From Deltaproteobacteria bacterium (GTDB lineage: Bacteria > Bdellovibrionota > UBA1018), in contig JABDFB010000009.1 of assembly GCA_013286765.1 (NCBI GenBank), forward strand, positions 1-36,964: a stretch of 36,964 bases of DNA. Reading direction: 5' to 3'. A model generated the notes under the pieces. That model did not search any database. It was not told where the DNA came from and worked only from the letters and a program-made list of their open reading frames with translations. A program made the translations under genes and the position numbers. The first letter of the stretch is position 1, and each line of letters begins with the position of its first letter. Below, piece after piece: positions 6,265 to 35,171 of this stretch.

Positions 6265-6438
6265 AAAATAGGGTATACCTTGTTTTAAGATTTCATACAA
6301 TTTGTTCTCGTACTTATATTGGCCGGATGTTTGAACGAGTGCCAAGAACACGCACAAAACCTTGGACAAAAGCCTCATCAAGTGGTTAATCAAAACTTGA
6401 ACCGTGAGTTTAATCCAATATTAAGTAAAGTGATTGAG

Positions 6439-12752: not shown

Positions 12753-12830
12753 TTTACTGCACCTCGGCACACTAGCTACCATAGTTCAGTAAATAGAAAA
12801 GAAAAGAATTAAGCTTGGGTCAGTAGTTTG

Positions 12831-13730
12831 CTATTGATTATCAAACTCAAACCCGTACGTACTCCAAGGATCAAAATGAACTAGCTTCTTCGCTGAGAAA
12901 TCCGGTCTCATAAAATCTGTGGCAACTTGATTGAGAAGTGCGGCTGAGGTTGAAAACGTACTATTGGATAGCAGCATAATGTCCGCGTTACTGAGAAGAT
13001 AGTGGTCGGAATAGAAATCGGCGCCTTCTATATTTAGCTTTATCCCTAGGCTTTCACTAGTTTCAGGATGGAATTCGGCAAAATCCGGCAGAATTTCCTT
13101 TAGGCTATCGCTCGCAAGAAATACGACTGGGTCTTCCAGCTTATTCCAATGCTCTTTCAGCCAGTTTACGTACCAGGTAGTGGGTGAAATATTAAAAGGA
13201 GGTTTTCCAATCCAAACAAAATCTCCCCGTCGGATATGAATTCCTATAACCGTTTTGTGCTGTCGCAGTTTGTCTAATCCCGGTTGAAGTTGCGCTTTAA
13301 CTTCTGGAAGAGGTTGGAATAGCTTTAGAATTTCTTCCCTATTCCAACGGTGATAGGAAGTATTCCCGAGGAATACACCTGTGAAGTCTACACCTGAATA
13401 GCGCTTCTCAGACAAGCCTGCGTATGACCGTAAAACTTCGTCACTCTCAGGAACTGGGCAATAGTTCACAGTGACTTCTGGATCATTAAAACCATAGATT
13501 TGTTTTCCGATCCAACCGCGGGTCTCAAATTCTAGGTGGTGTCTTTTTGCATAGCCTCTTATAAAGATGTATTGGTAAACTTGATTTCCAAACCGACCAT
13601 ACTGCCCAAGAGTTGAGAACGTGACTTTATTGTCTTCCGGCCTAACAACGCACTCAGGGTCACATGCAATACTATTTATTGATAAAATACCTAAAAAGAT
13701 CCCAGATAGAAAACGACTAAATTTTTCCAT
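12831..13730 (-). CDS. GT11-family (alpha-1,2-fucosyltransferase-like) protein with signal sequence
   Basis: The three motifs of glycosyltransferase family 11 are present: YGRFGNQVYQY (44-54; family form GGLGNQxFQY), IHIRRGDF (164-171) and SNSTFSTSAAL (255-265; family form SNSSFSWWAA). The HxRRGD motif binds GDP-fucose in this fold. Unlike typical cytosolic bacterial members, this one starts with a basic segment and a hydrophobic stretch (FLSGIFLGILSINSIAC), which is a signal peptide, a signal anchor or a weak lipobox (C23). This implies an exported or membrane-tethered protein. The ATG at 13730 gives 299 aa; a GTG five codons upstream is possible. It lies between two carotenoid-type genes on the same strand, 78 bp from the oxygenase start and about 126 bp from the flavoenzyme stop. 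Acceptor unknown. Confidence 0.75.
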   Translation of the reverse strand: MEKFSRFLSGIFLGILSINSIACDPECVVRPEDNKVTFSTLGQYGRFGNQVYQYIFIRGYAKRHHLEFETRGWIGKQIYGFNDPEVTVNYCPVPESDEVLRSYAGLSEKRYSGVDFTGVFLGNTSYHRWNREEILKLFQPLPEVKAQLQPGLDKLRQHKTVIGIHIRRGDFVWIGKPPFNISPTTWYVNWLKEHWNKLEDPVVFLASDSLKEILPDFAEFHPETSESLGIKLNIEGADFYSDHYLLSNADIMLLSNSTFSTSAALLNQVATDFMRPDFSAKKLVHFDPWSTYGFEFDNQ

Positions 13731-13856
13731 CTGAGCTTTATACACTATTTATGTAGTTTAATCAACCATTACTGTGTAACATATTTAACCCTAGGAGACA
13801 GCCCTATCACAGCAAATGATCTCAGGCCCTATTCGACTCAAGCACATAAACTACTT

Positions 13857-19904: not shown

Positions 19905-21254
19905 ATGCCTATGACCAAGAATAAAATTTTAAAAGTCATTGCTCGCGAAGTTTTGGATTCCCGTGGATTTCCCACAGTGGAAGTAGAATTGACACTAAAC
20001 CACCAAAAACGGCCCTCTGACGTAGTGGTCGGGCGCGCAATAGTTCCTTCGGGAGCTTCCACAGGCGAAGCGGAAGCACTAGAGCTTCGCGATGGTGACA
20101 AAAACCGCTATTTGGGAAAAGGCGTTCTCAAAGCGCTTCAGAACATCCAGCAGAAAATCGCCCCCGCAATTGAGAACAAGGCATTTACGCAAATCGCCGA
20201 ACTTGATCGTGTTTTGATGGATTTAGACGGCACTCCCAATAAATCACAACTCGGTGCCAATGCGATTTTAGGGGTAAGCATGGCCTTTGTAAGGGCTTGT
20301 GCCCTCGCTTCGGACACTCCATCCGATGAATTGATTGCTAAAATATTCCAGACCTCTGGCAACACTCTGCCGGTTCCTTTGATGAATATTATAAACGGAG
20401 GAAAACACGCCGATAATGACCTGGATATTCAAGAATTCATGATTGTTCCGGCTGGATTTTCGTCCTTTTCGGAAGCTCTTCGGGCAGGAGTAGAGACATT
20501 CCACCACTTAAAAAAATTACTGAAAGACCAAGGCCTATCGACCTCCGTCGGGGACGAAGGGGGCTTTGCACCATCGTTTCACGGCAAAAATCCCCACGAA
20601 CAAGCATTAGAAATGCTGATACGTGCCATTACCAGTGCTGGATATCGTCCGGGAGAACAGATTTTTCTAGCATTGGATTCGGCAGCCAGTGAATTTTGCG
20701 AAAAGAATGAAAACAAAGGAAGCCCAATCACCTACCTCTTTGAGAAAAAATCCCTTTCCGCCGCAGAAATGATTGCGACTTATGACCGCTGGAGTCACCA
20801 GTACCCTCTGATCTCTATCGAAGACGGCTTGGCCGAACAGGATTGGGCGGGGTGGAAGGACTTGACCGAACAATTAGGGGACCGTTTGCAGCTAGTGGGC
20901 GACGATCTCTTTGTCACAAATCCTATTTTCCTAAAAAAGGGCATCGAAACGCATACTGCCAATGCTATTCTGATTAAACTAAATCAGATTGGTACAGTAA
21001 CCGAGACACTGGAAACCATGAAACTCGCTCAAGAATCCGGATTTCAATGCATCGTCTCTCACCGTAGCGGCGAGACTGAGGATACTTTTATTGCCGACTT
21101 GGCAGTAGGAACAAACTGTGGTCAAATTAAGGCTGGGTCCGCGTCTCGTACTGACAGGGTTGCGAAGTACAACCAACTCCTGCGACTCGAGGAGCGCCTG
21201 GGCAAAAAAGCCGTTTTTCCTGGGACTAAACCCTTTCTAAGGAAAAAAAGGTGA
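19905..21254 (+). CDS. eno: Enolase (2-phosphoglycerate dehydratase)
   Basis: Glycolytic enzyme converting 2-phosphoglycerate to phosphoenolpyruvate. All key residues are present: E218 (GDEGGFAP), K358 (ILIKLNQ) and K409 ([11 protein letters not shown]) at the active site. Metal ligands are D258 (ALDSAASEF), E306 ([11 protein letters not shown]) and D333 (VGDDLFVTN); HADN (168-171) and SHRSGETED are also intact. The protein has 449 aa, somewhat longer than E. coli (432). About six extra residues lie in the N-terminal hairpin ([12 protein letters not shown]), and the usual DSRGNPT reads DSRGFPT. ATG 19905 has no good Shine-Dalgarno; ATG 19911 is an alternative. The stop overlaps the start of the next gene (GTGA). 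Confidence 0.96.
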
Positions 21255-21571
21255 AGAAAACTCTTCAAATTTTCTCTCTGAATCAAAAGTGGTTAATTTT
21301 GTTTTGTTTATGGCTCCTGTTTCTAACAGGTCTCTTCTCCAGTTTTCTAGGCTCCCCCGGAATTCTTCAAGCCATGAGATTGAACGCACTATTTGAACAA
21401 AGAAAGCTCCAACTAACTGTATTAAATGACGAAGTTCAAAAACTCGAGTCAGACGTAGAAAAATTAGAGCACAATCGTGTGGCTCAGGAAAAAGAAATCC
21501 GGAAAATCCTCGGTTACGCAGCAAAAGATGAAATTATTTTTGACTTTATTCCCGCCGATCCTTCAAAATAA
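21251..21571 (+). CDS. FtsB/DivIC-family septum-formation protein
   Basis: Small bitopic division protein of 106 aa. It has a short cytoplasmic start, one membrane segment (about 14-31, [19 protein letters not shown]) and a periplasmic coiled coil (about 43-85, [20 protein letters not shown] and following heptads). The tail contains [18 protein letters not shown], resembling the conserved R-x-x-LGY-x-x-x-(D/E) end of FtsB/DivIC. The start is GTG at 21251, overlapping the enolase stop by 4 bp, so translation is coupled. An ftsB-like gene next to eno is a common arrangement in proteobacteria. In the family it links FtsL and FtsQ in the divisome. Confidence 0.85.
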
Positions 21572-21895: not shown

Positions 21896-21924
21896 GCTAG
21901 GTCGTGTGTTATTGCTTACCTAGC
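21896..21924. terminator. Possible bidirectional terminator hairpin
   Basis: GCTAGGT (21896-21902) pairs with ACCTAGC (21918-21924) around a 15-nt loop at the junction of the convergent csp and phosphatase genes. There is no strong U-tract on either side, so it is a weak call. Confidence 0.35.
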
Positions 21925-22795
21925 GGTCAATACTATACCTGTACTCTAGTGTAAGTGCGCGTTGTCTCGCTAGCTTTGTGCAATAGTTTTTGATCTTCGT
22001 TTCGATCTGGGAACCCATTGAAACAAGTGCTGGCTCTCCACGTACACCTGTGCCGTACTGATGTGCGAAAGCTGTGGGACAAACTTTGTATGACGGAAAA
22101 ACCAAGTCCATCCGGTCTGAATCCAGAATGACTTTACCCACTCGAAGGCCCTGCTCCACGCTGAGACGGCCCTCTTCAATTTCATTCAGTACGATTTCAT
22201 AGGCGGTGGTAAAAGGACTCACGCTCGATGGTAAAGGCCGGGCTCCGATTTGGTGGATATACGTACCAATAATTCTATTCGTGGGGACTTCTTTTGCAAA
22301 CTGTTCGTAAATTTCAGGATCCCAATGCACGTCATCGCCTACTAATAAAAAAGCCGTGTCATTCGCCTCTGCAAGGTTATTGAGCTGTTGTAATTTATAA
22401 TAGAATGTACTCTCCCACTTCCACCAATTGCTGAGCAGGAACTGCCCTGCGGGAAATCCCCCTGAAACTACCAAAATATCCTGCAACCTAGACGCCATCG
22501 ACTGAGGTGAGGCACTGAGATAGAATACCTTTTCGGCTGATTTTGCTAACTCCTGGTACAAGGCCGACATTCCAGGAAAAGTATCTCGGTTAAGGACATT
22601 TAGAACGGCAGAGTAATAGTGTGCTGTACCCGAGACCTTTAAAGTGTCGTCAATGTCGCTTACAACGAGGAATTTCTGTGCCGCCGCATGAACCCCTTGT
22701 GCAACCCTCTCCCCACCTTCCACAGCAAAAACAGAGGGTAATTGAATTGCGAAAAACAGAGTTAAAAGCGTGGAAATAGATTTAGCTAGTTTCAT
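21920..22795 (-). CDS. Exported App1-type (DUF2183) HAD phosphatase
   Basis: Phosphatase of the App1 catalytic-domain family, whose yeast founder dephosphorylates phosphatidate. The HAD nucleophile motif is SDIDDT (46-51, with D47 and D49). Motif II-like LSASPQ is at 93-98 and the acidic GDDVHWDPEIYE follows from 153. Residues 1-24 form a signal peptide (ISTLLTLFFAIQLPSVFA), so the enzyme should act in the periplasm or outside. 291 aa. GGGG precedes the ATG at 22795 by a short spacer. It stands alone, downstream of the RCC1 array on the same strand but separated by 145 bp that include a hairpin. Phosphatidate or another phospholipid as substrate is inferred from the family only. Confidence 0.85.
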   Translation of the reverse strand: MKLAKSISTLLTLFFAIQLPSVFAVEGGERVAQGVHAAAQKFLVVSDIDDTLKVSGTAHYYSAVLNVLNRDTFPGMSALYQELAKSAEKVFYLSASPQSMASRLQDILVVSGGFPAGQFLLSNWWKWESTFYYKLQQLNNLAEANDTAFLLVGDDVHWDPEIYEQFAKEVPTNRIIGTYIHQIGARPLPSSVSPFTTAYEIVLNEIEEGRLSVEQGLRVGKVILDSDRMDLVFPSYKVCPTAFAHQYGTGVRGEPALVSMGSQIETKIKNYCTKLARQRALTLEYRYSIDR

Positions 22796-22940: not shown

Positions 22941-24503
22941 TTAAGGATACGTTGCATAAGGGTAAGTCACATATGGGATCCACTTTGGTTCGGTAATTTT
23001 GCCACTGTCCTTACCAAGTCCGAGAGCTTGCCCATTGCCCCAACCAAAAATTCGGTCGTGTTCAGTAATCACAACAGTATGTTTTGCGCCCACTGAAACT
23101 GCTTTTATTTTCACATCATCTTGCGGAAAAGGAGGGTAATTTCCCTCATAAATAACTACTTCACGAATCTCACCCACAGGACTATCGTGACCTAATTGAC
23201 CTTCGGAGTTATCGCCCCATGTGTAAAGGTGTCCATCATCGGTAAGCGCAGCTATATGGTTTGCACCCACAGCAACAGACTTGATCACGATTTGACCTAC
23301 TTTATTTTTACTCTTATCATTGAAAAATTCAACGCGCTTGGGTTTTGGCTGTTCTGTTCTGTCGTCATAACCCAAATGACCCAACTTATTTTTATAATTG
23401 TTACCCCATGTATAAAGGTCACCATCGACTGTAACTGCTGCACTATAATCTGGCCCCAACGCTACGGATTGAATCGGCGGTTCTCCCGGTTCAAAATGAA
23501 CTTCCTGTGGAGTAGTCTGAATTTCATAATTACCAAGTCCGAGTCTTCCGTCTGTCCCCAAACCCCAGGTATAAAGCGTTCCATCCCGCGCGATGGCTGC
23601 CGTATGTTCTGCGCCTAAAGCGACAGAAGACACCTGAATTTTTTCAAAAAATGGAACCTGTGTTGGTTTAAAATAATCGTTATTACCAAAATAACCTTTC
23701 ACCAAGCCCAGCTTACCATTAGACCAATGGCCCCATGTATACAGCTTGCCATCTCGGGTAACCACAGCAGCATAGTCGGTGCCTAATGAGACGGATGCAA
23801 TATTATCTTTAAACTCCTTAAGATCGGTCCCTTCAAATACAGCAGGTTGATCTGCAGCTTTAATAAAAACTATTTTCTCCGAAAAGCTAATTCCCTTACC
23901 CCAAGTAAAAAGCTCTCCTCTTTCGGTCACAGCAGCACTGTGGCCCGATGGCCCTGCAGTAATAAAATCAATACGACGATCCAGCAATGGCCCAGCTACT
24001 ATTTTTGGTTCGGAGACATCCGACTTTGGTCTGCGACCGTCATCGTCTTTCTCGGATTTCATATGACTGAGAACCTTCGTATCTTGGCCCCAAGAATAAA
24101 GTCTATCCCTAATTAGAATGAGATTATGACTATTGGTTACCGCTAGATCATTCCTCTTAACAATTTCATTTGGGGTTCTTGATCTACTGCGTTTTGGGCA
24201 GTCGGGACCCTTTCCTGAATTCGGCGGAGTAGGCTGTGTTGGCGGTTGTTTTGTTGGCGTTGGTGCTGTTGGCACTGGCTGTGCAGCTGGCAGCGCGGGT
24301 GGTGTGGAAATACTTGCCGGTGGCGGATACGGTTGTGGTTTTAACGGTGGGTAAATTCGAGGAACTGCTGTAGTCGGTTGCGGTTCACTTGGATTGGGTA
24401 ATAAATAAGACCCTGAATTGCTACCATTACATCCGCTCATACTAACAAGCGGTACCAATCCGGCAACTAGAATAAGCAAATTTACAAACTTTGACCTTAC
24501 CAT
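22941..24503 (-). CDS. RCC1-repeat beta-propeller lipoprotein 1 (Pro/Thr linker)
   Basis: 520-aa lipoprotein. The signal ends SMSGC (C25). It is followed by a Pro/Thr-rich linker (about 30-105) and then seven RCC1 motifs with cores LYSWG, LFTWG, LYTWG, LYTWG, LYTWG, LYTWG and IFGWG. Each is preceded by a strand like VALGAEHTAAIARDG. Seven blades make a full propeller of the RCC1/BLIP-II type. In other organisms such propellers bind proteins; none of the eukaryotic Ran-exchange context applies here. GGGGGAAG sits just before the ATG. Only 43 bp separate it from the upstream RCC1 gene, so these two are probably co-transcribed. The C-terminus repeats TYPYATYP. Surface or periplasmic side of the outer membrane is likely. 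Ligand unknown. Confidence 0.88.
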   Translation of the reverse strand: MVRSKFVNLLILVAGLVPLVSMSGCNGSNSGSYLLPNPSEPQPTTAVPRIYPPLKPQPYPPPASISTPPALPAAQPVPTAPTPTKQPPTQPTPPNSGKGPDCPKRSRSRTPNEIVKRNDLAVTNSHNLILIRDRLYSWGQDTKVLSHMKSEKDDDGRRPKSDVSEPKIVAGPLLDRRIDFITAGPSGHSAAVTERGELFTWGKGISFSEKIVFIKAADQPAVFEGTDLKEFKDNIASVSLGTDYAAVVTRDGKLYTWGHWSNGKLGLVKGYFGNNDYFKPTQVPFFEKIQVSSVALGAEHTAAIARDGTLYTWGLGTDGRLGLGNYEIQTTPQEVHFEPGEPPIQSVALGPDYSAAVTVDGDLYTWGNNYKNKLGHLGYDDRTEQPKPKRVEFFNDKSKNKVGQIVIKSVAVGANHIAALTDDGHLYTWGDNSEGQLGHDSPVGEIREVVIYEGNYPPFPQDDVKIKAVSVGAKHTVVITEHDRIFGWGNGQALGLGKDSGKITEPKWIPYVTYPYATYP

Positions 24504-24546
24504 ACTTCCCCCAAATCAAACCCCATCAGATAAAGCTACGTCAGCC

Positions 24547-25896
24547 CTATTCCCTGTGTAATTCTACTGGTCCATGACTTGCTCGATCACTACCCCAGGT
24601 ATAAATCTTTCCGTCTTCCCCAAGAGCGACAGCATATTCAGAAGCAAAATCGACAGCGACAATTTTCACGTCCTTACCAAAGTCAACCCGCTCTGGGACT
24701 AATTCATTTCCGTTACGTCCTAATAGATTTTTTGAATTATCACCCCAAGTATAAACTTCGTGATTTTGTGTAATAACTGCAACTTGGTTCGCACCTGCTG
24801 CAACAGAAATAATTTTCAATCCCATGTCTTCGAGAATTTTAACTTGCTGAGGTTCTTTCACTAACTCTCCCACAGCGTAGCCCAATTTGCTGCCCGCAGC
24901 TCCCCAGGTATAAACTTTTCCATCGCCAGTAACAGCGGCACTAAAATCTGGGCCCAGAGAAACTGACGTTACATTCCTGAGAGATTCTACTTTTTTGGGC
25001 GTGTACTGTATGTCTTCGCTTCCGTGGCCTAGCTTCCCGGACGTTCCATTACCCCAAGTATAAAGATCTCTCGTATCAGAAATAGCTGCGGTGTGATCGA
25101 CGCTTAATACAACAGAAGCAACACGTATCTTCGGCTGCGCGTCTGCAAAGAATGAAACGAGCTGTGGATCACTAAAACTACTATTCCAGAAATGATAAGG
25201 AATCCCTAATTTTCCCGAAGAAACGCTACCCCAGGTATAAAGACCGCCTTCAGCAGTAACAGCAGCGTAATAGTCAGAACCAAAAGCGACGTCCGTTACC
25301 TTCTTTCCCGCAAGAGCTTTTACCGGCTCAATCGGATTGATAGTAAAACCACCAAACAAATTTCCCTCTGTTTTTTGTGTCCACGTATAGAGAGTGCCTT
25401 GAGATGTCACTAAAGCAGTCTTTAAGTAAGCCTTCCATGGACCAGCTTTCTCAACTGCAGCAGCTAAAGAAACAATTTGATTTTCACCTTCACCAGAAAT
25501 TTCAAGACTGATTTTCCTATCATCGCTATTGATGGCGCGAGGAGCATCAACTGCAGCATCCGAATGTCCGAGCCACATTCCGCTTTGGCCTTGTGGAGCC
25601 CAGGTGTAGGCTCTTCCGTTAAATGCTTCAACGGCGTGCAAACGAGTTACCGAGAGAAGCTTGCGGTATTCGGCAATGGTTTTACCTGGATTGTTTGTTG
25701 GTGTGCTTCTAGGAGCCTTAGGAAGTGCTTTTTCAGGTTGCTCGCCGATTAAATGATTTTTTGAAAGAAGATCGGTATATTCCGGTATTTTTGAAGATTG
25801 CGAGGTTTCTGAAGTTACAACTGGCTTCTGACCATCGTCCGAACTACAACCGGCTAGTGCTAAACAAAACAATAAAACGACTGTGCTTTTTTTCAT
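24547..25896 (-). CDS. RCC1-repeat beta-propeller lipoprotein 2 (short linker)
   Basis: 449-aa lipoprotein from the ATG at 25896. The signal MKKSTVVLLFCLALAGC (C17) has a classic LAGC lipobox. The linker is short and mixed (about 18-85, with Lys/Pro/Ser), unlike the neighbours. Seven RCC1 cores follow: AYTWAPQ, LYTWTQK, LYTWGSV, LYTWGNG, VYTWGAA, VYTWGDN and IYTWGSD. The first two are degenerate after the Trp. A GTG two codons upstream is in frame but redundant; AAAGAG lies about 6 nt before the ATG. The gene has its own promoter-like sequence (25936-25964) and is isolated from the gene upstream by a strong terminator. It probably forms a two-gene transcript with lipoprotein 1. Confidence 0.88.
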   Translation of the reverse strand: MKKSTVVLLFCLALAGCSSDDGQKPVVTSETSQSSKIPEYTDLLSKNHLIGEQPEKALPKAPRSTPTNNPGKTIAEYRKLLSVTRLHAVEAFNGRAYTWAPQGQSGMWLGHSDAAVDAPRAINSDDRKISLEISGEGENQIVSLAAAVEKAGPWKAYLKTALVTSQGTLYTWTQKTEGNLFGGFTINPIEPVKALAGKKVTDVAFGSDYYAAVTAEGGLYTWGSVSSGKLGIPYHFWNSSFSDPQLVSFFADAQPKIRVASVVLSVDHTAAISDTRDLYTWGNGTSGKLGHGSEDIQYTPKKVESLRNVTSVSLGPDFSAAVTGDGKVYTWGAAGSKLGYAVGELVKEPQQVKILEDMGLKIISVAAGANQVAVITQNHEVYTWGDNSKNLLGRNGNELVPERVDFGKDVKIVAVDFASEYAVALGEDGKIYTWGSDRASHGPVELHRE

Positions 25897-25935
25897 AATC
25901 ACTCTTTAATACTTTGCAAGATTAAATAACGACTA

Positions 25936-25964
25936 TAAATACCATAATGGAGCTTTTAGGTCAA
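25936..25964 (-). promoter_or_regulatory. Candidate promoter of RCC1 lipoprotein 2
   Basis: On the minus strand, TTGACC (25964-25959) and TATTTA (25941-25936) are spaced by 17 bp, about 40 bp before the ATG at 25896. The -10 box is poor, so this rests mainly on the -35 box and spacing. Confidence 0.35.
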
Positions 25965-26040
25965 TTTAAGTCATCGACAATCGATCCGTTTAAATTAATT
26001 AAGTTTAATATATATCCGTAGCCAAACCCCTTAAATACAA

Positions 26041-26073
26041 GAGGCCTTCGTATCTAGTGAATACGAAGGCCTC
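26041..26073 (-). terminator. Rho-independent terminator of RCC1 lipoprotein 3
   Basis: GAGGCCTTCGTAT (26041-26053) pairs perfectly with ATACGAAGGCCTC (26061-26073), a 13-bp stem with a 7-nt loop. It is followed on the minus strand by TTGTATTT. It lies 25 bp past the stop at 26099. It shares the GGCCTTCG stem core with the terminator of the next paralogue (27633-27666). Confidence 0.75.
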
Positions 26074-26098
26074 TCAACTAAGTTAGATTATATTTATT

Positions 26099-27508
26099 CT
26101 AGTTGAATACTTTTCCTTCGGGATTTACGCCAAATTCAGCAAATTCGCCGGATTCGTAAACCACCACCGTGGATTCAGGTCCAACTGCGATAGACTTAAC
26201 CTTGCCCTTCTCGTTGATTTTCTCAGCAAGAATAGGTTCCCACTCATGGCCGCTACGACCGAGCTGGCCCTTCGCATTATTACCCCAGGTGTAAACACGA
26301 CCGTCTGCCATCAAAACAGCGACATGCTTTTCACCGATAGCTACAGATGTTACGGCAGTAGCGCCTTTAACATTGCTTGGGCTGGGAATTATGACTTGTT
26401 TTGGTTCATTTCCATTAGAGCCGGTGTTGTCAAAGGTCTCGCCCCACATATACAAAGCACCGCTCTTTGTCACTGCAGCGCTCGCATTTGGGCCCAAAAA
26501 GACAGAAGCAACGAGTATTTGCTCTTCTTTGCTCTTATTGAAAAACTTTACTTCGGTAGGAGTAGGTTTCATCTCGGAATCACCATGACCTAGTTTTCCA
26601 GAGAGGCCATTACCCCATGTAAAAAGACGGGCGTCTTCGGTTACTGCGGCAGTGTGGTTCACACCTACGGCAACAGAAGCAACTGTAATACCTTTGAAAA
26701 AGGGAATAGGCCTTTTTTTACTTTGCGTATAGGATGCTTCAGGACCATAGTACCAGTCCTTTACACTTCTGTTGTACTGCCCAAGTTTACCATCTTTGCC
26801 TACACCCCAGGTATAGAGCTCACCGGCAGTTGTAACATAAGCTACATAGTCTGGCCCTAAAGCTACAGAAGCGACATTTTTTTCGATTTCGTTTTCTTTG
26901 AAAAGCGAGACTTTTACAGTTGGATAAATAGTTACAATATTGCCGTTATCTTTTGTGCTTATATCGATTACTTTCTGTCCTGAAAACTCGAGATCTCCGT
27001 TTTCTTTCACACGAGCAGAATAATTCGGGCCCGCTGCAACGTACCTGTATACGGGTAGCTTAACTCCAATGCTGCCATCCGTTAAAGATTCTTCCGTAAC
27101 CATCATCTGCATAGGACCAGAACCAAGACGAGTTCCATTTTGAGTTTGATTCAACCATTTGCCTTCGCTACCCCAAGAATAGACTACGCCATCTTGTAAT
27201 CTCAGGGCGTGAGTACTGCTAACTGAAATTGCGTTGTTCACCGCGATTTCGTTAATAGAGCCGTCAGTCTTATCACTATTGACATTGTCGGTGGTTTTTG
27301 AGGGCTCTTGGTTCTTGCCATCAGAGACACTCTGACCAATCGCAGAATTCTGAACGTTATTTGCGGATTGAACATCGGCGGATTTGCCAGGTTTTTCCTG
27401 ACTTCCCTGAGGTGCAGGGCTTGGCTGAGCGCCAGGATTAGAATTAGAACCGGAATCACAGCCGGTTACCATCAGACACAAGAATAGAGCAATCAAACTT
27501 TTTTTCAT
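26099..27508 (-). CDS. RCC1-repeat beta-propeller lipoprotein 3 (duplicate pair member)
   Basis: 469-aa lipoprotein with signal MKKSLIALFLCLMVTGC (C17). The linker starts NPGAQPSPAPQG and is Asn/Asp/Ser-rich to about residue 88. Seven blade cores can be traced: VYSWGSE, a degenerate LEFSGQK, LYTWGVG, LFTWGNG, LYMWGET, VYTWGNN and a degenerate FAEFGVN. Blades 3-6 are almost the same as in the next gene (GNGLSGKLGHGD, MKPTPTEV and FFNK shared). GAAAGGAA lies 12 nt before the ATG. It has its own terminator at 26041-26073 and sits in an isolated transcription unit. It is clearly one half of a tandem duplication with 27700-29076. Likely outer-membrane anchored; ligand unknown. Confidence 0.88.
   Translation of the reverse strand: MKKSLIALFLCLMVTGCDSGSNSNPGAQPSPAPQGSQEKPGKSADVQSANNVQNSAIGQSVSDGKNQEPSKTTDNVNSDKTDGSINEIAVNNAISVSSTHALRLQDGVVYSWGSEGKWLNQTQNGTRLGSGPMQMMVTEESLTDGSIGVKLPVYRYVAAGPNYSARVKENGDLEFSGQKVIDISTKDNGNIVTIYPTVKVSLFKENEIEKNVASVALGPDYVAYVTTAGELYTWGVGKDGKLGQYNRSVKDWYYGPEASYTQSKKRPIPFFKGITVASVAVGVNHTAAVTEDARLFTWGNGLSGKLGHGDSEMKPTPTEVKFFNKSKEEQILVASVFLGPNASAAVTKSGALYMWGETFDNTGSNGNEPKQVIIPSPSNVKGATAVTSVAIGEKHVAVLMADGRVYTWGNNAKGQLGRSGHEWEPILAEKINEKGKVKSIAVGPESTVVVYESGEFAEFGVNPEGKVFN
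27347..27443 (-). repeat. Near-identical linker segment shared with 28915-29011 (copy 1)
   Basis: This 97-bp stretch differs from 28915-29011 at only two positions, although the flanking parts of the two genes have diverged much more. It encodes the NPGAQPSPAPQG to SANNVQN linker start. The leader around the start codon is also duplicated: 27495-27532 equals 29063-29100 over 38 bp. Confidence 0.9.
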
Positions 27509-27569
27509 AACAACTTTAAATTCCTTTCAAAAATTTTTAATTAAATATCATTTATATAAAATTAATGCA

Positions 27570-27590
27570 ACAATATTGTAAACAATTGTT
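27570..27590. promoter_or_regulatory. Two adjacent 10-bp palindromes upstream of RCC1 lipoprotein 3
   Basis: ACAATATTGT (27570-27579) and AACAATTGTT (27581-27590) are both perfect palindromes and lie one base apart, 62-82 bp before the ATG at 27508 in very AT-rich DNA. They could be a tandem operator. The duplicate gene (27700-29076) lacks them at the matching place, so its regulation may differ. Confidence 0.35.
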
Positions 27591-27632
27591 TTATAAAGAT
27601 AAATTCACCAACCGCAAAACTGTAGAAAACAC

Positions 27633-27666
27633 GAAGGGCCTTCGCAAGTTTCTGCGAAAGCCCTTC
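27633..27666 (-). terminator. Rho-independent terminator of RCC1 lipoprotein 4
   Basis: GAAGGGCCTTCGCA (27633-27646) pairs with TGCGAAAGCCCTTC (27653-27666) with one mismatch, around a 6-nt loop. It is followed on the minus strand by GTGTTTTC. It is 34 bp past the stop at 27700. Confidence 0.75.
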
Positions 27667-27699
27667 CTTTAGTATGCAGTCCTCTATTCTTATCTAAGT

Positions 27700-29076
27700 T
27701 TACTTCTGCTCAATGCTCTCGCCAAACTCGTCATAGGTACCTTTTTCACGGAGCACTATGGTGCTCCTAGGTCCAACTGCAATCGCAACAGCCTTGCCTA
27801 ACTTATTTATTTCTCCCGCGGGCAGAGGTTCCCAGTCAGTACCGCTACGACCAAGTTGTCCTTTTGAATTATCACCCCAGGTATAAACCATGCCATCCTG
27901 AGTTAGGACAGCGACGTGTTTTTCGCTAATAGCTACTGAAGCAACCTTTACTAATTCTGAAGGATTGTTTGGGTTTGTGATCACAACCTGTTTAGGTGTC
28001 TCTCGGACCACAGTATTCAATTTATAACTGTCGGATTTAGAACCAACCAATTCGAGACCTTCAAAACAGTCGCCCCACATGTAGAGAGCACCAGTGCTTG
28101 TTACCGCTGCGCTGGAGTTCGGCCCTAAAGTAACAGATACAATATTTATTTTTTCATTTTCTTTATTAAAAAAATTCACTTCGGTAGGAGTAGGCTTCAT
28201 AGCAAAATCGCCATGGCCAAGTTTTCCAGAGAGGCCGTTACCCCATGTAAAAAGACGACCATCTACAGAAACTGCGGCAGTGTGATTTACGCCCACAGCA
28301 ACAGAGGCAATCGCAATGTCCTTAAAAAACGGCACAGCTCTTTTTTGGCTCTGTGAAAAGTCTGACTCTTTGCCAACCCATTTCCACAAGCTGTCCGACC
28401 ACGTTCCTAAGTACTGCCCAAGCTTGCCATCTTTACCATTACCCCAAGTGTAAAGCTCACCTTCCAACGTAACTAGCGCAACGTAATTAGGTCCTAGCGC
28501 TACAGAAGCGACATCTTTTATCCAGTCGTTACCAAGGAGCCACGATGCCTGATTACCAAAAATATCAAGCAGTCCATCTTCGGTAATTCGAGCTGTATAC
28601 TTTTCACCTGCTGAAATGAAGCGAAACGAAACTCCGCCATTCATTACTTCCTGAGCTCCAAAGCCCTTCCGCTCTCCAGTCGCGGTCTGTCCTAACCAAG
28701 AACCTTCCTTGCCCCAGGAGTACACAACGCCGTTCAATTGCGTGAGTGCATGAGTGCTGCTGACTGATAATCTATTAGTTTTCATGATCTCGTTAGCAGT
28801 AAAGTTCCGAGTCTGGCCTTGATCTGGTTGTTGCCCGTTGCCGCCATCGCCATTGGTCCCAGTTGAACCAGTATTACCTGCACCCTGATTGTTACCAGCG
28901 GCGCCACTAGCGGGATTCTGAACGTTATTTGCGGATTGAACATCGGCGGATTTGCCGGGTTTTTCCTGACCTCCCTGAGGTGCAGGGCTTGGCTGAGCGC
29001 CAGGATTAGAAACTGGACTAGATTCACATCCAGCTACCATCAAACATAGAAATAAAACAAATAAACTTTTTTTCAT
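27700..29076 (-). CDS. RCC1-repeat beta-propeller lipoprotein 4 (duplicate pair member)
   Basis: 458-aa lipoprotein with signal MKKSLFVLFLCLMVAGC (C17). The linker begins NPGAQPSPAPQGGQEKPGK as in lipoprotein 3. It then changes to Gly/Asn/Thr-rich (AAGNNQGAGNTGSTG, GGNGQQPDQGQ) to about residue 95. Seven blade cores are VYSWGKE, a degenerate LDIFGNQ, LYTWGNG, LFTWGNG, LYMWGDC, VYTWGDN and a degenerate YDEFGES. Blade 5 has an insert (FEGLELVGSKSDSYK) missing in lipoprotein 3. The leader and Shine-Dalgarno (GAAAGGAA) are identical to those of lipoprotein 3. It has its own terminator (27633-27666), so it is a separate unit. Same predicted location and unknown ligand as its twin. Confidence 0.88.
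   Translation of the reverse strand: MKKSLFVLFLCLMVAGCESSPVSNPGAQPSPAPQGGQEKPGKSADVQSANNVQNPASGAAGNNQGAGNTGSTGTNGDGGNGQQPDQGQTRNFTANEIMKTNRLSVSSTHALTQLNGVVYSWGKEGSWLGQTATGERKGFGAQEVMNGGVSFRFISAGEKYTARITEDGLLDIFGNQASWLLGNDWIKDVASVALGPNYVALVTLEGELYTWGNGKDGKLGQYLGTWSDSLWKWVGKESDFSQSQKRAVPFFKDIAIASVAVGVNHTAAVSVDGRLFTWGNGLSGKLGHGDFAMKPTPTEVNFFNKENEKINIVSVTLGPNSSAAVTSTGALYMWGDCFEGLELVGSKSDSYKLNTVVRETPKQVVITNPNNPSELVKVASVAISEKHVAVLTQDGMVYTWGDNSKGQLGRSGTDWEPLPAGEINKLGKAVAIAVGPRSTIVLREKGTYDEFGESIEQK
28915..29011 (-). repeat. Near-identical linker segment shared with 27347-27443 (copy 2)
   Basis: Second copy of the 97-bp block (two differences), inside RCC1 lipoprotein 4. Together with the identical 38-bp leader (29063-29100) and the related terminator, it shows that the duplication covered a whole transcription unit of about 1.5 kb. 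Confidence 0.9.
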
Positions 29077-29220
29077 AACAACTTTAAATTCCTTTCAAAA
29101 GCTGTAATTAAATAGCACAAAGGTACTAAAAAATAAATGAGTTTAATAAATCTAAACTAAACAACTATAATTCAAATAAGATTCTGATGGACGGTAGCCA
29201 AAGACAAAACCGCTCTGATT

Positions 29221-31071
29221 CTACTCCAGAAGAACTGGTTTATGTCTGTCCATGGTACTATGATTTTTATCAACTAAAGTGGTTGAAACGCTCGATTCAC
29301 CCCAAACGAAGACTTCGCCACTCTTCGTAAGGACTGCACTATTATCCGTTCCAAGCGCAACATCAACAACGTCGGGTTGAGTATTATCGAAGTTCAGGCG
29401 TACCGGCTTTAACCGAGGCTCACTATCACCGAGACCCAATTTGCCATGTGTTCCATCACCCCACATGTAGACTTGATGGTCAGTCAACGAAATCGCGGCA
29501 GAATGTACTGCCGACGCGACAACGGACTGAATCCGAATTCCTTCTAAAGCTTTAACCTTCTTTGGCAAATATTCATCTTTCCGATTGTCGTGGCCCAACT
29601 GACCAAATGAACCGGAACCCCAAGTGTAAACTTCCCCACTTTCCGAAACCGCCATACTGTAGAAACGCCCAGCTGCTACAAAAGTCATTCGAGGCTGGTG
29701 AGCTGTCTTCGAACCGGATTGATCGAATCTAACTAAATACGGATATTCTTGAATAGAAGTATCACCCGTACCGAGCTGTCCCTTTAAATTATGCCCCCAG
29801 GTATAAACCTGTCCTTTATCAGAGAGAGCGATGATATGCCCAGTTCCGGTATTACTGTCGCCGAAAGCAACCTGAACAATTTTAATTTCGTACTTTATAA
29901 AATACGGCACAGGCTTCGGTGTATCGTCGAAGGGTGAACTTAAAGGGTTAAGGCTAGAAAAAAGGCCAGATATGGTCGAAAGAATAAATGACGGATTACC
30001 CTGGCCTAGCTGATGGACAGAATTGTCTCCCCACAGATAGAGATCTTTATCTTGGGAGATGGCCGCTCTAACCGATGTCCCAAGAACAACCGAAGCGATC
30101 TTAATGCCTTTCGAGTCAAAATAAGTTTCTAAAGTTGGTTCATCTAAAAAATCCCCTTGAGACTTCGTTAAAGTCGCCCCCCAACTGTAAAGTCTACCTC
30201 CTCGTGATACAGCAGCGCTCTGCGCACCATAGGCATCTACTGAAACGAGGACTACCTTTTCTCCGTTGCTTTCTTGCACCTTGGTGACGTTGTCAAAGGA
30301 TTCATTGATTTTGGCCTTTTCCTGAGCTCGGTAGCCACCTGTCCCAAGCTGTCCCTGCCCATTCTTTCCCCAAACCCGAAGTAACTGCCCTTCCTTGAGG
30401 AGCTGTACGCCATGCATACTACCTAGGGCTAAAACTTTTTTAAATGGCTCCGGATGAATCACGGGATCATCACTAGAATCATCGTCAGAACTGGAATGAA
30501 CACCACCATTGCTATCTTCACTAGCACCAATACTGGCACTGCGCGAATCAAAACCCGCACTTAGGCCCGAAGATGAGCCAGGACTGAGGTTGGCATTGAG
30601 ACCAGAACTAGAAATCGGAGGGGAACTGGCCTTTGGCTTAGAATTAGCGCCGGCTCCGGTACTGGCCATAGAGTAGGTCCCGGTTTCGCCAGGAGCAGAG
30701 TTACTTGTTTTAGCAGGATCGAGTCCGCCATTTGTTCTTCTTCCCGCCCCGTCTGATTGTGCAGAATCTGCAAGACCAGTGGTCGATTTTTCGGTGCGTG
30801 GTACAGGGGCATTTAAATTACTGTTATTAATATATTTACTAGGGTAATTCAGATTTTCGGTAGACTCAGGAGCAGCGCTGCCTGAGGCGGCGTCTAAGGC
30901 ATCTGAATTTGTTGAGTTAGGCGCTTTCGTATCGTTGTTCTCGATAGACTGACCGACTATTCGATCAGTCGTCTCTGATGGGGCGGATACGTCGGAATCA
31001 GACCCGGAGTTACAAGCACTAGAGGCTGTAGCCAATAGCACTACCAGGCCTGTTTTAATTCTCTTCTTCAT
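29221..31071 (-). CDS. RCC1-repeat beta-propeller lipoprotein 5 (long Ser/Gly linker)
   Basis: 616-aa lipoprotein. The signal ends TASSAC (C20). A very long linker (about 21-205) is rich in Ser, Gly, Asn, Ala and Thr, with an acidic end (SSSDDDSSDDP). It could act as a flexible stalk. Seven RCC1 cores follow: LRVWGKN, LYSWGAT, LYLWGDN, VYTWGHN, VYTWGSG, VYMWGDG and VFVWGES. Several have the full GQLGTG/GKLGLG ending, so this is the most canonical propeller of the six. GAAAGGAT precedes the ATG at 31071 by 11 nt. A promoter with a perfect TTGACA is at 31124-31152. I see no clear terminator after its stop. Predicted at the outer membrane; ligand unknown. Confidence 0.88.
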   Translation of the reverse strand: MKKRIKTGLVVLLATASSACNSGSDSDVSAPSETTDRIVGQSIENNDTKAPNSTNSDALDAASGSAAPESTENLNYPSKYINNSNLNAPVPRTEKSTTGLADSAQSDGAGRRTNGGLDPAKTSNSAPGETGTYSMASTGAGANSKPKASSPPISSSGLNANLSPGSSSGLSAGFDSRSASIGASEDSNGGVHSSSDDDSSDDPVIHPEPFKKVLALGSMHGVQLLKEGQLLRVWGKNGQGQLGTGGYRAQEKAKINESFDNVTKVQESNGEKVVLVSVDAYGAQSAAVSRGGRLYSWGATLTKSQGDFLDEPTLETYFDSKGIKIASVVLGTSVRAAISQDKDLYLWGDNSVHQLGQGNPSFILSTISGLFSSLNPLSSPFDDTPKPVPYFIKYEIKIVQVAFGDSNTGTGHIIALSDKGQVYTWGHNLKGQLGTGDTSIQEYPYLVRFDQSGSKTAHQPRMTFVAAGRFYSMAVSESGEVYTWGSGSFGQLGHDNRKDEYLPKKVKALEGIRIQSVVASAVHSAAISLTDHQVYMWGDGTHGKLGLGDSEPRLKPVRLNFDNTQPDVVDVALGTDNSAVLTKSGEVFVWGESSVSTTLVDKNHSTMDRHKPVLLE

Positions 31072-31123
31072 ACTCTAAAAGATCCTTTCAGATAGATTCA
31101 CTATCTTCTTGAACTTTTTAAGC

Positions 31124-31152
31124 TGCTAACACCGTGCGACATGCGGTGTCAA
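31124..31152 (-). promoter_or_regulatory. Candidate promoter with inverted repeat, RCC1 lipoprotein 5
   Basis: On the minus strand, TTGACA (31152-31147) is followed 17 bp later by TTAGCA (31129-31124), or 18 bp later by TAGCAG. The spacer holds an inverted repeat, ACACCG (31129-31134) with CGGTGT (31144-31149). A repressor bound there would block polymerase; this is inference. Confidence 0.45.
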
Positions 31153-31235
31153 CTAATATTCTGAAGTAAATGGAATGAATGAAGAACTATCCACTCCTCC
31201 AAAGCCAATTAAGGGAATTCCGAGTGTGATAATTT

Positions 31236-33119
31236 CTATTGCGTTTTGTCTACGGGCAGCAGATCTGGCGCTTTTATAGGTCCGTTTGAGCCCCAGTGGA
31301 AGACTCGCCCATCTTTTGAAATGGCTGTAGCATCTTCAGGACCTACTGAAATAGAATCTATGTCGTACAGAGTTCGAATCCTTCTCGGCTCATTAGTTCC
31401 TAAGCCCCAAGTATAAACATACCCTTTCGTTGAAAGGGCAACAGCGTGCTTCGCACCTAGCGCGAAGGATTTGATCTTTATGTCTCTCTTATCATTCTGA
31501 AAGTAAGAAACTAGCTTTGGAGAAGAAACTCCGTCGTAGTCAGCATGTCCGAGCAAGCCATCCTTACCCGAACCCCAAGTATAGAGACCACCTTGCTTCG
31601 TAACTACTGCAGTTAAATCCTCGCCAAATACAACAGAGTGAATATCACCGAGCCCATGATCCGAGAAGTAAACTACCTTTTCGGGCGTGGCCAGGTCCGG
31701 GCATCCTAATATGGCTACACAAGGTCCAAATAAATTCAGATTCGAATGCTTACCCCAGGCATACACCTCGCCGTTTTCGGCTATAGCAGCGGTCATCCCA
31801 TCACCTAAAGCTACAGAAGATACATAAATTCTCCTGTCGCTCAAAAACTCTACTTTTTGTGGTCTTCCGTAAGACCTTTTATAGTCTGACCAAGGCAACC
31901 AAGATTTACCCCCGTCGACAAGATTCGAACCTGTGTTTCCATCTTTCCAGAGGCCCAGTTCTCCGTCGGAGCCATTGCCCCAGGTATAAAGCTCTTTGTT
32001 CTTGCTAATCAGCGCATTATGGTTTTTACCTATAAAGATGGATTCGACTCCGGTAGGGATATTTTTAAACTCTTCTACCAAAATAGGATTCAATTGCACG
32101 CCTTCGAATTTCAGAAATGTATATTTAGCTGGTATCAACTTCTCGTGGTAATCATCCAACAAGTAAGCACTCTGGACCCACGACCATAACCACGGCAACC
32201 ATTCTGCCGGTCGCTTTGTCCCATCACCAGAAGGACTGTCGGTTGGAATCGGCTGCCGTTCCAATAGCAAGAAATTATAGGTTTCCTCACGCGCCCAATT
32301 TTTGTTAAAATATTCAAGAAAAACATCGAAGCCATCCTTAGGCAACTCATTAGCCAATTTGACCATTTCTACACTATAAAGTCCTTCAATGGGCTTATTC
32401 TCTAGTTCCCAGTTTGCGATAGTTTTTCCCATTTCTTTAAGATTTTTGTTTGACCAACTATCATACTTATTGCCTAAATAGCCCCAAGAATAGACGTCGC
32501 CATTATCCAAAATGGCTATACTTTGACCGGCCATTTTTGCTGTTCCCGAGACCACTGAACTTACTTTCTTATCTTTAAAAAACATCTGGGGGTGTCGATT
32601 TGCTTCAGCCATTGGCCCTTGCTCAATGATTCCTCCATCCTGCGTAATTTCGACCCTATTACCCTCAGATCCAGTAGAAACTAATTTGCGCTGAAGATTA
32701 TGGGGCAGAGCCGGTGGCGCTGGAGGAGCGGGCGGTACTGGTGGACTTGGCGGACTTGGTGGACTCGGAGGACTTGGTGGACCTGGCGGATTCGGAGGAC
32801 TTGGTGGACCTGGCGGATTCGGAGGACTTGGTGGACCTGGCGGATTCGGAGGACTTGGTGGATTCGAAGGTGTTCCTGATGGCGGTGTGGTCGGGTCAGT
32901 AGGAGTTGTAGTCGAAGGGTCTGGTGTTCCAGATTGCCCTTCATGAGCGCCTTCTGGTTTTTTTTCGTCCGATTTTGGTTTGTCTTGCGGAGATTCCTGA
33001 AGGTGATTCGGATTTGCAGAAGGCGACTTTTGAGCGGAATCATCAGTGCTAGAATCACCACCTCCACCACAGGCAGTTAAACTTAAACAGACTAGTAAAA
33101 TAAAAACATATTTTTTCAT
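31236..33119 (-). CDS. RCC1-repeat beta-propeller lipoprotein 6 (Pro-rich linker, blade insert)
   Basis: 627-aa lipoprotein from the ATG at 33119, with signal MKKYVFILLVCLSLTAC (C17, LTAC lipobox). The frame is open 29 codons upstream, but that part precedes the signal and overlaps the promoter. The linker (18-145) is Lys/Asp/Ser-rich and then strongly Pro-rich (PPNPPGPPSPP units). Blade cores are a degenerate GGIIEQG, VYSWGYL, LYTWGNG, VYAWGKH, LYTWGSG, VYTWGLG and VFHWGSN. A Trp-rich insert of roughly 120 residues (including EWLPWLWSWVQSAYLLDDYH) interrupts the propeller between blades 2 and 3. It may be a separate binding or cap element. First gene of the array, with its own promoter and operator-like palindrome. 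Confidence 0.88.
   Translation of the reverse strand: MKKYVFILLVCLSLTACGGGGDSSTDDSAQKSPSANPNHLQESPQDKPKSDEKKPEGAHEGQSGTPDPSTTTPTDPTTPPSGTPSNPPSPPNPPGPPSPPNPPGPPSPPNPPGPPSPPSPPSPPSPPVPPAPPAPPALPHNLQRKLVSTGSEGNRVEITQDGGIIEQGPMAEANRHPQMFFKDKKVSSVVSGTAKMAGQSIAILDNGDVYSWGYLGNKYDSWSNKNLKEMGKTIANWELENKPIEGLYSVEMVKLANELPKDGFDVFLEYFNKNWAREETYNFLLLERQPIPTDSPSGDGTKRPAEWLPWLWSWVQSAYLLDDYHEKLIPAKYTFLKFEGVQLNPILVEEFKNIPTGVESIFIGKNHNALISKNKELYTWGNGSDGELGLWKDGNTGSNLVDGGKSWLPWSDYKRSYGRPQKVEFLSDRRIYVSSVALGDGMTAAIAENGEVYAWGKHSNLNLFGPCVAILGCPDLATPEKVVYFSDHGLGDIHSVVFGEDLTAVVTKQGGLYTWGSGKDGLLGHADYDGVSSPKLVSYFQNDKRDIKIKSFALGAKHAVALSTKGYVYTWGLGTNEPRRIRTLYDIDSISVGPEDATAISKDGRVFHWGSNGPIKAPDLLPVDKTQ
32767..32847. repeat. 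Three perfect 27-bp tandem repeats coding the Pro-rich linker
   Basis: Three identical 27-bp units at 32767-32793, 32794-32820 and 32821-32847, with partial copies on both sides (about 32740-32766 and 32848-32865). The unit is a multiple of three and encodes nine residues of the PP-N-PPG-PP-S type, so copy-number change would lengthen or shorten the linker without a frameshift. Inside RCC1 lipoprotein 6. Confidence 0.95.
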
Positions 33120-33176: not shown

Positions 33177-33299
33177 CCCATTTGCCAAGGACAAGGAAAA
33201 CAGCAAATCACCAAAATATTTTGACGATTTTAATTGAGATAAATTAAACTATTTAAATTTATTATAAATCCACCGTCTAACCCTGAAGACGCCTTCTTA

Positions 33300-35171
33300 T
33301 CAATACCCTAGTCTCTCGCTGCGTTTCACACTTCGGAGATTCTGCGCGAGGACTTTTTTTCGGAGTCGAATCGATTTAGGAGTAACTTCAATCCATTCAT
33401 CTTCGTCAATCCATTCGATACACTGTTCCAGCGACATTTTTTTAATTCCGGCGAGAGTAACTAGAACCTCCGCATGAGCAGCGCGGATATTTGTCAGTTT
33501 CTTTTCTTTGCAGGGATTGACGTTGAGATCATTTTCTTTGTTATATTCGCCGATAATCATGCCTTCGTAGACAGGCACGCCGGGGCCAACAAACAAAACA
33601 CCACGATCTTCGAGGCCGAGTAGTCCGTACTCGACCGTATCGCCTGAACGGTCAGATATCAGGGCGCCACTGGTGCGGTGCGGGAGTTCTCCCTTGTGTG
33701 GACCATAGTGAAGAAAGTAAGTGCTAAAAAGACCTTCGCCACGAGTGGCTGTCAAATACTTCGAGCGCATTCCTAGAAGTCCACGTGTAGGAATATCGAA
33801 TTCCAATCGGACTCGCTTGTTGCCGTGGCTGGATCCGCCTTCGTATTTGGTCATGATGCCTTTTCGCCCCTGAAACATGGCAGTGACGTCGCCGACTGCT
33901 GATTCCGGGAGGTCGAGAACAGCTCTCTCGATGGGTTCGAGAACATTTCCACCTTCATCGTTCTTGTACAAAACGAGAGGTTTTCCAACCATGAATTCGA
34001 AGCCTTCTCGGCGCATTTGTTCGATTAAAATTCCAAACTGCAATTCACCACGACCGAGCACACGAAACTGATCGTTACTTTCTGTTTCTTCTAGCCGAAG
34101 TGCAACGTTATGACGGACTTCTCTCAGCAATCGGTCTCTGAGTTTTCTGGACTGAATTGCTTCCCCTTCTTTTCCCATGAGAGGCGAGGCATTCACGGCA
34201 AAAATCATCCCAAGAGTGGGTTTTTCTACGACGATTCGTGGAAGGGCTTCCTGAGTATCGGCACTGACCAACGTATCGCCAATTTCGACAGATTCATTAC
34301 CAGCGATAACACCGATATCGCCCGAGAAAAGTTCAGGAACTTCTGCTTGGCTCAATCCATCAAAAGTATATAATTGCGTGACAGTAAAGGATTCTTCTTT
34401 GGGTTTTCCTTCGAAATCAATCCCTTTTCGAATAATCCGTTGCCCTTTCTTAAGAACCCCGGAGGTCACTCGTCCAATCGCAAGTCGTCCCACATAATCA
34501 GAATAGGAAAGATTTGAAATCAAAATTTGCACATTCTCGCTAGGAATGACTTTGGGTCGAGAAACGTAATTCAGGATAGTTTCGAAGAGCGGTTGTAGCG
34601 AACCCTTTTTTTCGCCCGATAGGTAACTTGGAACTTCCTTCCGATCCAGCGTACACCAGCCTTGTCTAGCGCAGGTATAGACGATTGGAAATGCCGCTTG
34701 TTCGTCAGAAGCACCTAAATCCACAAATAAATCAAATGCGTGATTAACGACTTCTTCAATGCGGGCGTCGGGTCTATCCACTTTATTGATAACTAGAATA
34801 ACTTTCAGTCCCTGAGAGATTGCTTTTTGTAAAACAAATCTTGTTTGAGGAAGTGGTCCTTCTGCCGCATCAACGAGAAGCAATGCACCGTCTGCCATGC
34901 CAATAATTCGTTCCACCTCACCACCAAAGTCGGCGTGGCCCGGGGTATCGATAATATTGATTTTGGTATCTTTAAATATGACGGATGTATTCTTCGCAAG
35001 AATGGTGATCCCACGCTCTCGTTCGAGATCCATGGAATCCATCACGCGCTCACCCACCGTCTGGTGTTGCTTAAATGTGCCCGCTTGCCTCAGAAGAAAA
35101 TCAACAAGAGTTGTTTTACCGTGGTCGACGTGGGCAATAATACAGATATTTCTTAAATTTGGAGAATTCAT
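33300..35171 (-). CDS. typA: Ribosome-associated GTPase BipA/TypA
   Basis: Translation-factor-family GTPase that binds the ribosome and helps 50S assembly and stress adaptation (known from E. coli). G motifs are AHVDHGKT (13-20), RGIT (53-56), DTPGH (75-79) and NKVD (129-132). The EF-G-like domains III and V follow, and the BipA-specific C-terminal domain holds motifs such as TRGLLGMRSKYLTATRGEG. 623 aa against 607 in E. coli; the extra length is at the basic C-terminus (LRKKVLAQNLRSVKRSERLGY region). The ATG at 35171 matches the family N-terminus; no strong Shine-Dalgarno is seen. It stands alone, 93 bp upstream of the RCC1 array's first promoter-like palindrome region and 176 bp downstream of pntB, same strand. 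Confidence 0.97.
   Translation of the reverse strand: MNSPNLRNICIIAHVDHGKTTLVDFLLRQAGTFKQHQTVGERVMDSMDLERERGITILAKNTSVIFKDTKINIIDTPGHADFGGEVERIIGMADGALLLVDAAEGPLPQTRFVLQKAISQGLKVILVINKVDRPDARIEEVVNHAFDLFVDLGASDEQAAFPIVYTCARQGWCTLDRKEVPSYLSGEKKGSLQPLFETILNYVSRPKVIPSENVQILISNLSYSDYVGRLAIGRVTSGVLKKGQRIIRKGIDFEGKPKEESFTVTQLYTFDGLSQAEVPELFSGDIGVIAGNESVEIGDTLVSADTQEALPRIVVEKPTLGMIFAVNASPLMGKEGEAIQSRKLRDRLLREVRHNVALRLEETESNDQFRVLGRGELQFGILIEQMRREGFEFMVGKPLVLYKNDEGGNVLEPIERAVLDLPESAVGDVTAMFQGRKGIMTKYEGGSSHGNKRVRLEFDIPTRGLLGMRSKYLTATRGEGLFSTYFLHYGPHKGELPHRTSGALISDRSGDTVEYGLLGLEDRGVLFVGPGVPVYEGMIIGEYNKENDLNVNPCKEKKLTNIRAAHAEVLVTLAGIKKMSLEQCIEWIDEDEWIEVTPKSIRLRKKVLAQNLRSVKRSERLGY

Follow-up and report, generated by a model that had tools for sequence, protein, structure and literature searches.

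Six consecutive RCC1 propeller genes with lipoprotein-type signals in an uncultured relative of the Bdellovibrio group

Introduction

RCC1 propellers and bacterial lipoproteins are both known already, and RCC1 genes of lipoprotein-like appearance are common in the phylum Bdellovibrionota, where they are usually scattered. According to the passages on RCC1 proteins in the papers concerned, an RCC1 propeller on the minor pilin PilX2 of Saccharibacteria is a proposed adhesin for host tethering (PMC12206443), and the RCC1 propeller group also includes a secreted binder, BLIP-II (PMC9218822). An RCC1-family protein of Leptospira was predicted to be a lipoprotein by an earlier program, a call that the authors judged false, placing the protein in the cytoplasm (PMC2387172). 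Seven and ten RCC1-like proteins were reported from two genomes of the host-associated Hepatoplasmataceae (PMC10928387), and Bdellovibrio sequences annotated as RTX-toxin hold RCC1 repeats instead (PMC5941755). Here we describe a row of six RCC1-type open reading frames (ORFs), R1 to R6, in a 36,964-nucleotide stretch of Deltaproteobacteria bacterium (assembly GCA_013286765.1, contig JABDFB010000009.1, positions 1 to 36,964), the whole of which is called the window below. The host is an uncultured member of Bdellovibrionota related to the predatory Bdellovibrio group.

No published description of an RCC1 lipoprotein array was found among the papers listed in searches of the open-licence PubMed Central literature, and the words “chromosome condensation”, “propeller”, “lipoprotein” and “adhesin” are all absent from the main text of a comparative-genomics paper on the phylum (PMC11656739). 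An initial annotation of the window had read the row as an expanding family of tethered surface binders on stalks of different length, and this proposal was followed up computationally.

Results

The six RCC1-type ORFs lay in a row on the minus strand at 22941-33119, separated by gaps of 43-196 bp, and were numbered by transcription order (Table 1). For R1 the ORF list gave a TTG start at 33206, and the ATG at 33119 sits immediately before the signal peptide. Each protein starts with a short signal peptide ending at a lipobox cysteine, and by homemade rules the charged n-region, hydrophobic stretch and lipobox cysteine of a type II signal for bacterial lipoproteins were present. Three such rules called 6/6, 5/6 (R2 missed) and 1/6 of the proteins; the strictest demands a hydrophobic stretch of 12 residues, longer than most R1-R6 signals, and the most permissive also picked up 4 of the remaining 18 window ORFs that have at least 150 residues, two of which look false. 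The residues at position +2 after the lipobox cysteine were G, N, E, D, S and N in R1 to R6. The Pfam family RCC1 (PF00415) matched all six proteins above its curated cut-off (E 6e-24 to 1e-53), and the RCC1-like domain WD40_RLD (PF25390) matched five, R1 falling below; no NCBIfam family matched R1-R6. Seven blade positions could be placed in each protein, partly by eye, several being degenerate: the usual tryptophan-glycine (WG) pair was absent from blade 1 of R1, blades 2 and 7 of R3 and R4, and blades 1 and 2 of R5. A homemade blade profile found seven blades in R2, R3 and R4 and six in R1, R5 and R6. Taken together, the ORFs, Pfam matches, signal rules and blade placement confirmed the initial annotation in its description of six consecutive same-strand genes, each with a lipoprotein signal, a low-complexity linker and about seven blades.

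The structure model of R4 showed seven blades and aligned with UVR8 across the whole domain, and it fitted UVR8, RCC1 and HERC propellers better than BLIP-II. Mean identity among the six proteins ranged by blade from 22 to 53% in the 25-residue blade cores and from 8 to 30% in the loops after them, so that loops do vary while cores are kept, as had been claimed, yet this is usual for propellers. The likeness of cores in blades 1, 2 and 7 relative to blades 3-6 gave a ratio of 0.55 in the array (mean of 15 pairs), compared with 0.82 on average (5% quantile 0.54) in 3,482 control pairs, in which blade 1 was low too and which were anchored differently from the array pairs. A variable arc of blades 7, 1 and 2 in the array is therefore suggestive only.

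The linkers between the cysteine and blade 1 were 125, 190, 80, 71, 58 and 89 residues long in R1 to R6, and their composition differed, with 38% Pro in R1, 30% Pro in R6, 22% Ser in R2 and 19% Gly in R3. Linkers unlike in length and composition had been described, which held for these lengths and residue shares and failed for R3 and R4, whose linkers share a near-identical block. In the models, of R1 and R4, the linkers were of low confidence; the linkers are probably disordered stalks of differing length. Together with the lipoprotein signals, these features supported the picture of propellers tethered on stalks of unlike length. Part of the R1 stalk is encoded by a tandem repeat with a unit of 27 bp, and the length of this repeat can change without loss of frame.

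The six proteins are paralogs. Pairwise identity was 28-39% in 14 of the 15 pairs, and synonymous divergence (dS) in these pairs was above 2.3 or not computable. The remaining pair, R3 and R4, showed 53% protein identity, with 65% identity in aligned codons and a dS of 1.58. Within this pair, 94 of the 96 bases of linker codons 23-54 were identical, and this block carried 1 silent change in 31 identical residues, compared with 118 in 233 elsewhere (Fisher p 9e-8). Since the block is near-identical, with few silent changes, in an otherwise diverged pair, the simplest reading of the alignment is a recent gene conversion between R3 and R4.

The closest outside protein listed for R4 was P0003 (605 aa, 37% identity), which has seven blades, a long linker and, judged by eye, a lipobox; no other outside match in the list exceeded 35% identity across most of R4, and scoring was limited to candidates with exact words in common. 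A tree of 65 propellers placed R1-R6 and P0003 in one group (95/77), apart from 48 rows that included all 45 from fetched relatives, with P0003 inside the R1-R6 group as sister of R3/R4 (99/74). The tree has long branches, above all those of R1 and R2, and its bootstrap had not settled. If it is right, part of the expansion predates the split from the P0003 organism, and the family did not arise simply by copying of RCC1 genes from the examined relatives. The grouping and the R3/R4 conversion tract thus supported an expanding family. No second RCC1 protein from the P0003 contig (11,749 bases) was among the 120 matches listed in a profile search, which is weak evidence of absence since the list shows only R6 of R1-R6, so that paralogs can be missed. 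The viral contigs searched held no relative of P0003.

Strong hairpins with T-rich tails followed both R3 and R4 (Table 1), so at least these two transcription units probably end separately, judging from sequence and folding; the idea of a single operon for R1-R6 was weakened by the same hairpins. Three other intergenic stretches were folded and gave nothing strong. A pattern scan returned 17 terminator-like sites, compared with 12.0 (standard deviation 3.2) in shuffles, and promoters were not in excess (13 vs 17.5 in shuffles).

The array lies between genes for TypA/BipA and an FtsB/DivIC-type protein. TypA was 80% identical to that of metagenome-assembled genomes named “Oligoflexia bacterium”, and its best 30 matches comprised 23 with Bdellovibrio-group names and seven with vaguer ones (Proteobacteria, Deltaproteobacteria, bacterium). 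Among these 30 loci, FtsB was downstream of TypA in five (L001, L002, L006, L015, L020), four of which had enolase too, and PntB directly preceded TypA in five (L001-L004, L015); the full set of PntB, TypA, FtsB, enolase and Nfu was present in L001 and L015. Measured between match edges, the TypA-FtsB interval spanned 345 to 3,838 bases in the five loci, with varying gene content, and about 11.7 kb in the window, where it contains an APP1-type phosphatase gene besides R1-R6. APP1 domains occurred in 22 of the 55 genomes of the order and were absent from G001, the source of the top TypA match L001. A tblastn search of R1-R6 against 80 TypA loci gave no RCC1 match at a loosened threshold, although several of these loci stop a short way past TypA and weak RCC1 genes could escape. 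Because the flanks are conserved, the interval varies in length and genes, and no RCC1 match was found in these TypA loci, the array is taken to sit in an interval of variable content within an otherwise conserved neighbourhood. A mobile island was considered and set aside: Pfam named no integrase, there was no tRNA and no clear shift in composition, the placement being drawn from synteny. A defence system was likewise rejected, as PADLOC families matched none of the six. No RNA family was found.

With R4 as query, matches at E of at most 0.001 were obtained in 46 of the 55 genomes of the order, with identity of up to 39% in matches longer than 100 residues and of 51% over one 39-residue stretch. 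A profile of R1-R6 and P0003 matched 228 of the 368 genomes of the phylum. The places listed in all 46 matching genomes were inspected by eye, and only G059 held another row of at least three RCC1 frames within 20 kb of a single contig (three frames), a count that may miss arrays where contigs are draft. For another nine genomes of the phylum, the matches listed included adjacent pairs in G202, G217 and G253 and a row of three in none. The initial annotation had named single, strongly conserved copies of known enzymatic role in relatives as the finding that would speak against it; the copies of relatives proved diverse and mostly dispersed. The row in G059 (L133; contig C62, 96000-113000) consists of three lipoprotein-like RCC1 frames: two have 13-14 blades, and the third, 1,786 residues long, has 7. 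RCC1 blade matches number 133 in this genome, and the row is a second expansion, of different design. A lipoprotein-like start was present in 26 of 35 RCC1 frames, compared with 23 of 232 other frames (p 2e-15), and by a stricter rule in 16 of 35 and 15 of 232. These counts come from 40 fetched stretches (39 from the order and one from elsewhere in the phylum), picked among the better matches rather than at random, and cover RCC1 frames of at least 300 residues with the 5' end inside. RCC1 proteins at L131, L133-L138, L142, L143, L146, L147 and L169 often have 13-15 blades, and such relatives probably carry two propellers per chain. At L165 (6367-9502), two RCC1 frames overlap on one strand, perhaps two genes or one broken gene.

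Elsewhere in the window, genes for an RPE65-type carotenoid oxygenase, a family 11 glycosyltransferase and an FAD amine oxidase stand side by side on the minus strand (11217-12782, 12831-13745 and 13857-15530), possibly a small pigment or surface-modification cluster. At 6319-11210, a gene for a TolC-type outer-membrane protein overlaps one for an AcrB-type pump, and Pfam named no adaptor gene beside them in the window. An open frame of 855 residues that is truncated at the contig end (2-2566) has a signal-like start and no Pfam match, and its lysine/glutamate-rich spacers separate seemingly related segments.

Table 1. Positions of the array genes, their internal features and the flanking genes in the window
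Feature	Position	Strand	Source or remark
R1, 627-aa RCC1 lipoprotein; lipobox LTAC, Pro-rich linker, low-confidence helical insert (blades 2/3)	31236..33119	-	
R2, 616-aa RCC1 lipoprotein; Ser/Ala/Gly/Asn-rich linker of ~190 residues, seven regular blades (sequence)	29221..31071	-	
R3, 458-aa RCC1 lipoprotein; 53% identity with R4	27700..29076	-	
R4, 469-aa RCC1 lipoprotein; model a seven-bladed propeller downstream of a low-confidence linker	26099..27508	-	
R5, 451-aa RCC1 lipoprotein; shortest linker (58 residues); GTG start, ATG 6 bases further in	24547..25902	-	
R6, 520-aa RCC1 lipoprotein; Pro/Thr-rich linker, seven regular blades (sequence)	22941..24503	-	
27-bp tandem repeat, 4.4 copies, 95% matches; encodes part of R1 Pro-rich stalk in 9-residue units	32743..32862	-	
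R3 copy of shared linker block, codons 23-54	28915..29010	-	derived from codon columns; inside repeat D7
R4 copy of shared linker block	27347..27442	-	derived from codon columns; inside repeat D7
Hairpin then T-rich tail 3' of R3, likely terminator	27633..27666	-	pattern scan; folding z -6.1
Stretch with strong hairpin and T-rich tail 3' of R4, likely terminator	26030..26085	-	folding z -7.6; absent from pattern scan list
TypA/BipA, conserved gene at one edge of interval	33300..35171	-	Pfam, synteny
FtsB/DivIC-type gene, conserved gene at opposite edge	21251..21571	+	synteny
APP1-type phosphatidate phosphatase domain gene, inside TypA-FtsB interval	21920..22795	-	PF09949, E 2.6e-26

Discussion

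We read the array as a lineage-specific tandem expansion of RCC1 propeller lipoproteins in a variable TypA-FtsB interval, whose products would be tethered, non-enzymatic binders of external partners, and give this reading a probability of roughly one half. Each protein would be exported by the Sec pathway, lipidated at the lipobox cysteine and retained in the envelope, most likely at the outer membrane; the linker would act as a flexible stalk and the propeller as a non-enzymatic binding ring, a function suggested by the fold and by analogy with PilX2 and BLIP-II. The copies may have drifted toward different ligands, stalk segments may have been exchanged between them, and the R1 stalk could lengthen or shorten by in-frame slippage of its 27-bp repeat. 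As R3 and R4 at least are probably transcribed separately, copies could be expressed at different times. The likeliest role would be a small repertoire of tethered binders for external partners such as prey, host or surface ligands. Guanine-nucleotide exchange on Ran is implausible for R1-R6 because export signals are present.

From the initial proposal, an expanding family of propellers behind lipoprotein signals on probably disordered stalks of unlike length was supported by the tree, the conversion tract, the signals and the models. Several points weigh against the remainder. The outward orientation, the partners and the ligand differences among copies are drawn from the fold and from analogy, and Pfam named no predation or attachment gene near the array. 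In enteric bacteria an Asp at +2 leads to inner-membrane retention, a rule not established for Bdellovibrionota; by it, R4 would stay in the inner membrane. The structure models cover two of the six proteins, R4 and R1, and the closed seven-bladed propeller expected from prediction was obtained for R4 and in part for R1, whose model has six confident blades only. For R3/R4 the overall dN/dS was about 0.2 (0.316/1.58), in which positive or diversifying selection is not seen, and the expansion is seen against one close outside protein, P0003.

The main rival, which we hold to be possible and still doubtful, is that R1-R6 are outer-membrane lipoproteins facing the periplasm, where they would scaffold enzymes or envelope machines much as BamB does, and that their linkers span the periplasm or peptidoglycan and not a surface coat. 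BamB is a propeller lipoprotein of the outer membrane, and lipoprotein plus propeller is a known periplasmic design; the array adjoins housekeeping genes, and the surface placement of R1-R6 is itself inferred. However, a housekeeping scaffold would not usually come in six diverged copies on very unlike stalks, nor be so patchily distributed across the phylum (228/368 genomes), and Pfam named no machine genes beside the array. The proteins might instead be inhibitors or decoys that are secreted or carried on vesicles, in effect BLIP-II on a tether, and their targets would be enzymes of prey, competitors or phage. We regard this as unlikely, given the better fit of the R4 model to the UVR8, RCC1 and HERC propellers and the PADLOC result.

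A largely redundant duplication cluster, kept by dosage or drift without a separate ligand per copy, would agree with unequal crossing-over as a source of tandem genes and with the active recombination seen in the R3/R4 conversion. Yet the copies are old and diverged and all six frames are open, so each is probably kept under selection, which makes such a cluster very improbable. An extension of the tethered-binder reading treats the array as a recombining cassette locus for diversifying specificity, which would supply a predatory or epibiotic bacterium with varied surface binders: exchange of 5' stalk modules between R3 and R4 and in-frame slippage in R1 would change reach, and the arc of blades 7, 1 and 2 would change the ligand. 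This extension is speculative and, in our judgement, improbable.

The means by which predatory bacteria and their uncultured relatives recognise other cells are still poorly understood. In Bdellovibrionota, RCC1 proteins are widespread and many of these are lipoprotein-like, and a row of six diverged stalked copies provides a compact, testable set of candidate binders.

Among the 50 structural matches listed there was no stalked bacterial lipoprotein, and the RCC1-class entries, from the superfamily of UVR8, RCC1, HERC1/2 and BLIP-II, were eukaryotic or the secreted BLIP-II. The dispersed proteins of Bdellovibrionota (e.g. L132, L133, L148, L154) resemble R1-R6 in having RCC1 blades after a lipoprotein-type signal, with several copies per genome in some, and differ in that most of the genes stand alone and the proteins often have 13-15 blades or long additional regions. 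The Leptospira protein was likewise an RCC1-family member flagged as a lipoprotein, but its authors rejected the call, and the passage on it says nothing of an array (PMC2387172). In the account of Hepatoplasmataceae, the tandem clusters are giant repetitive ORFs, and the RCC1-like genes are not said there to be tandem or lipoproteins (PMC10928387). PilX2 of the type IV pili of Saccharibacteria shares with our proposal an RCC1 propeller held off the cell as a proposed adhesin; as described in the part of that work on PilX2, the propeller is carried on a pilus, whereas those of R1-R6 would be held by a lipid anchor and a disordered linker (PMC12206443).

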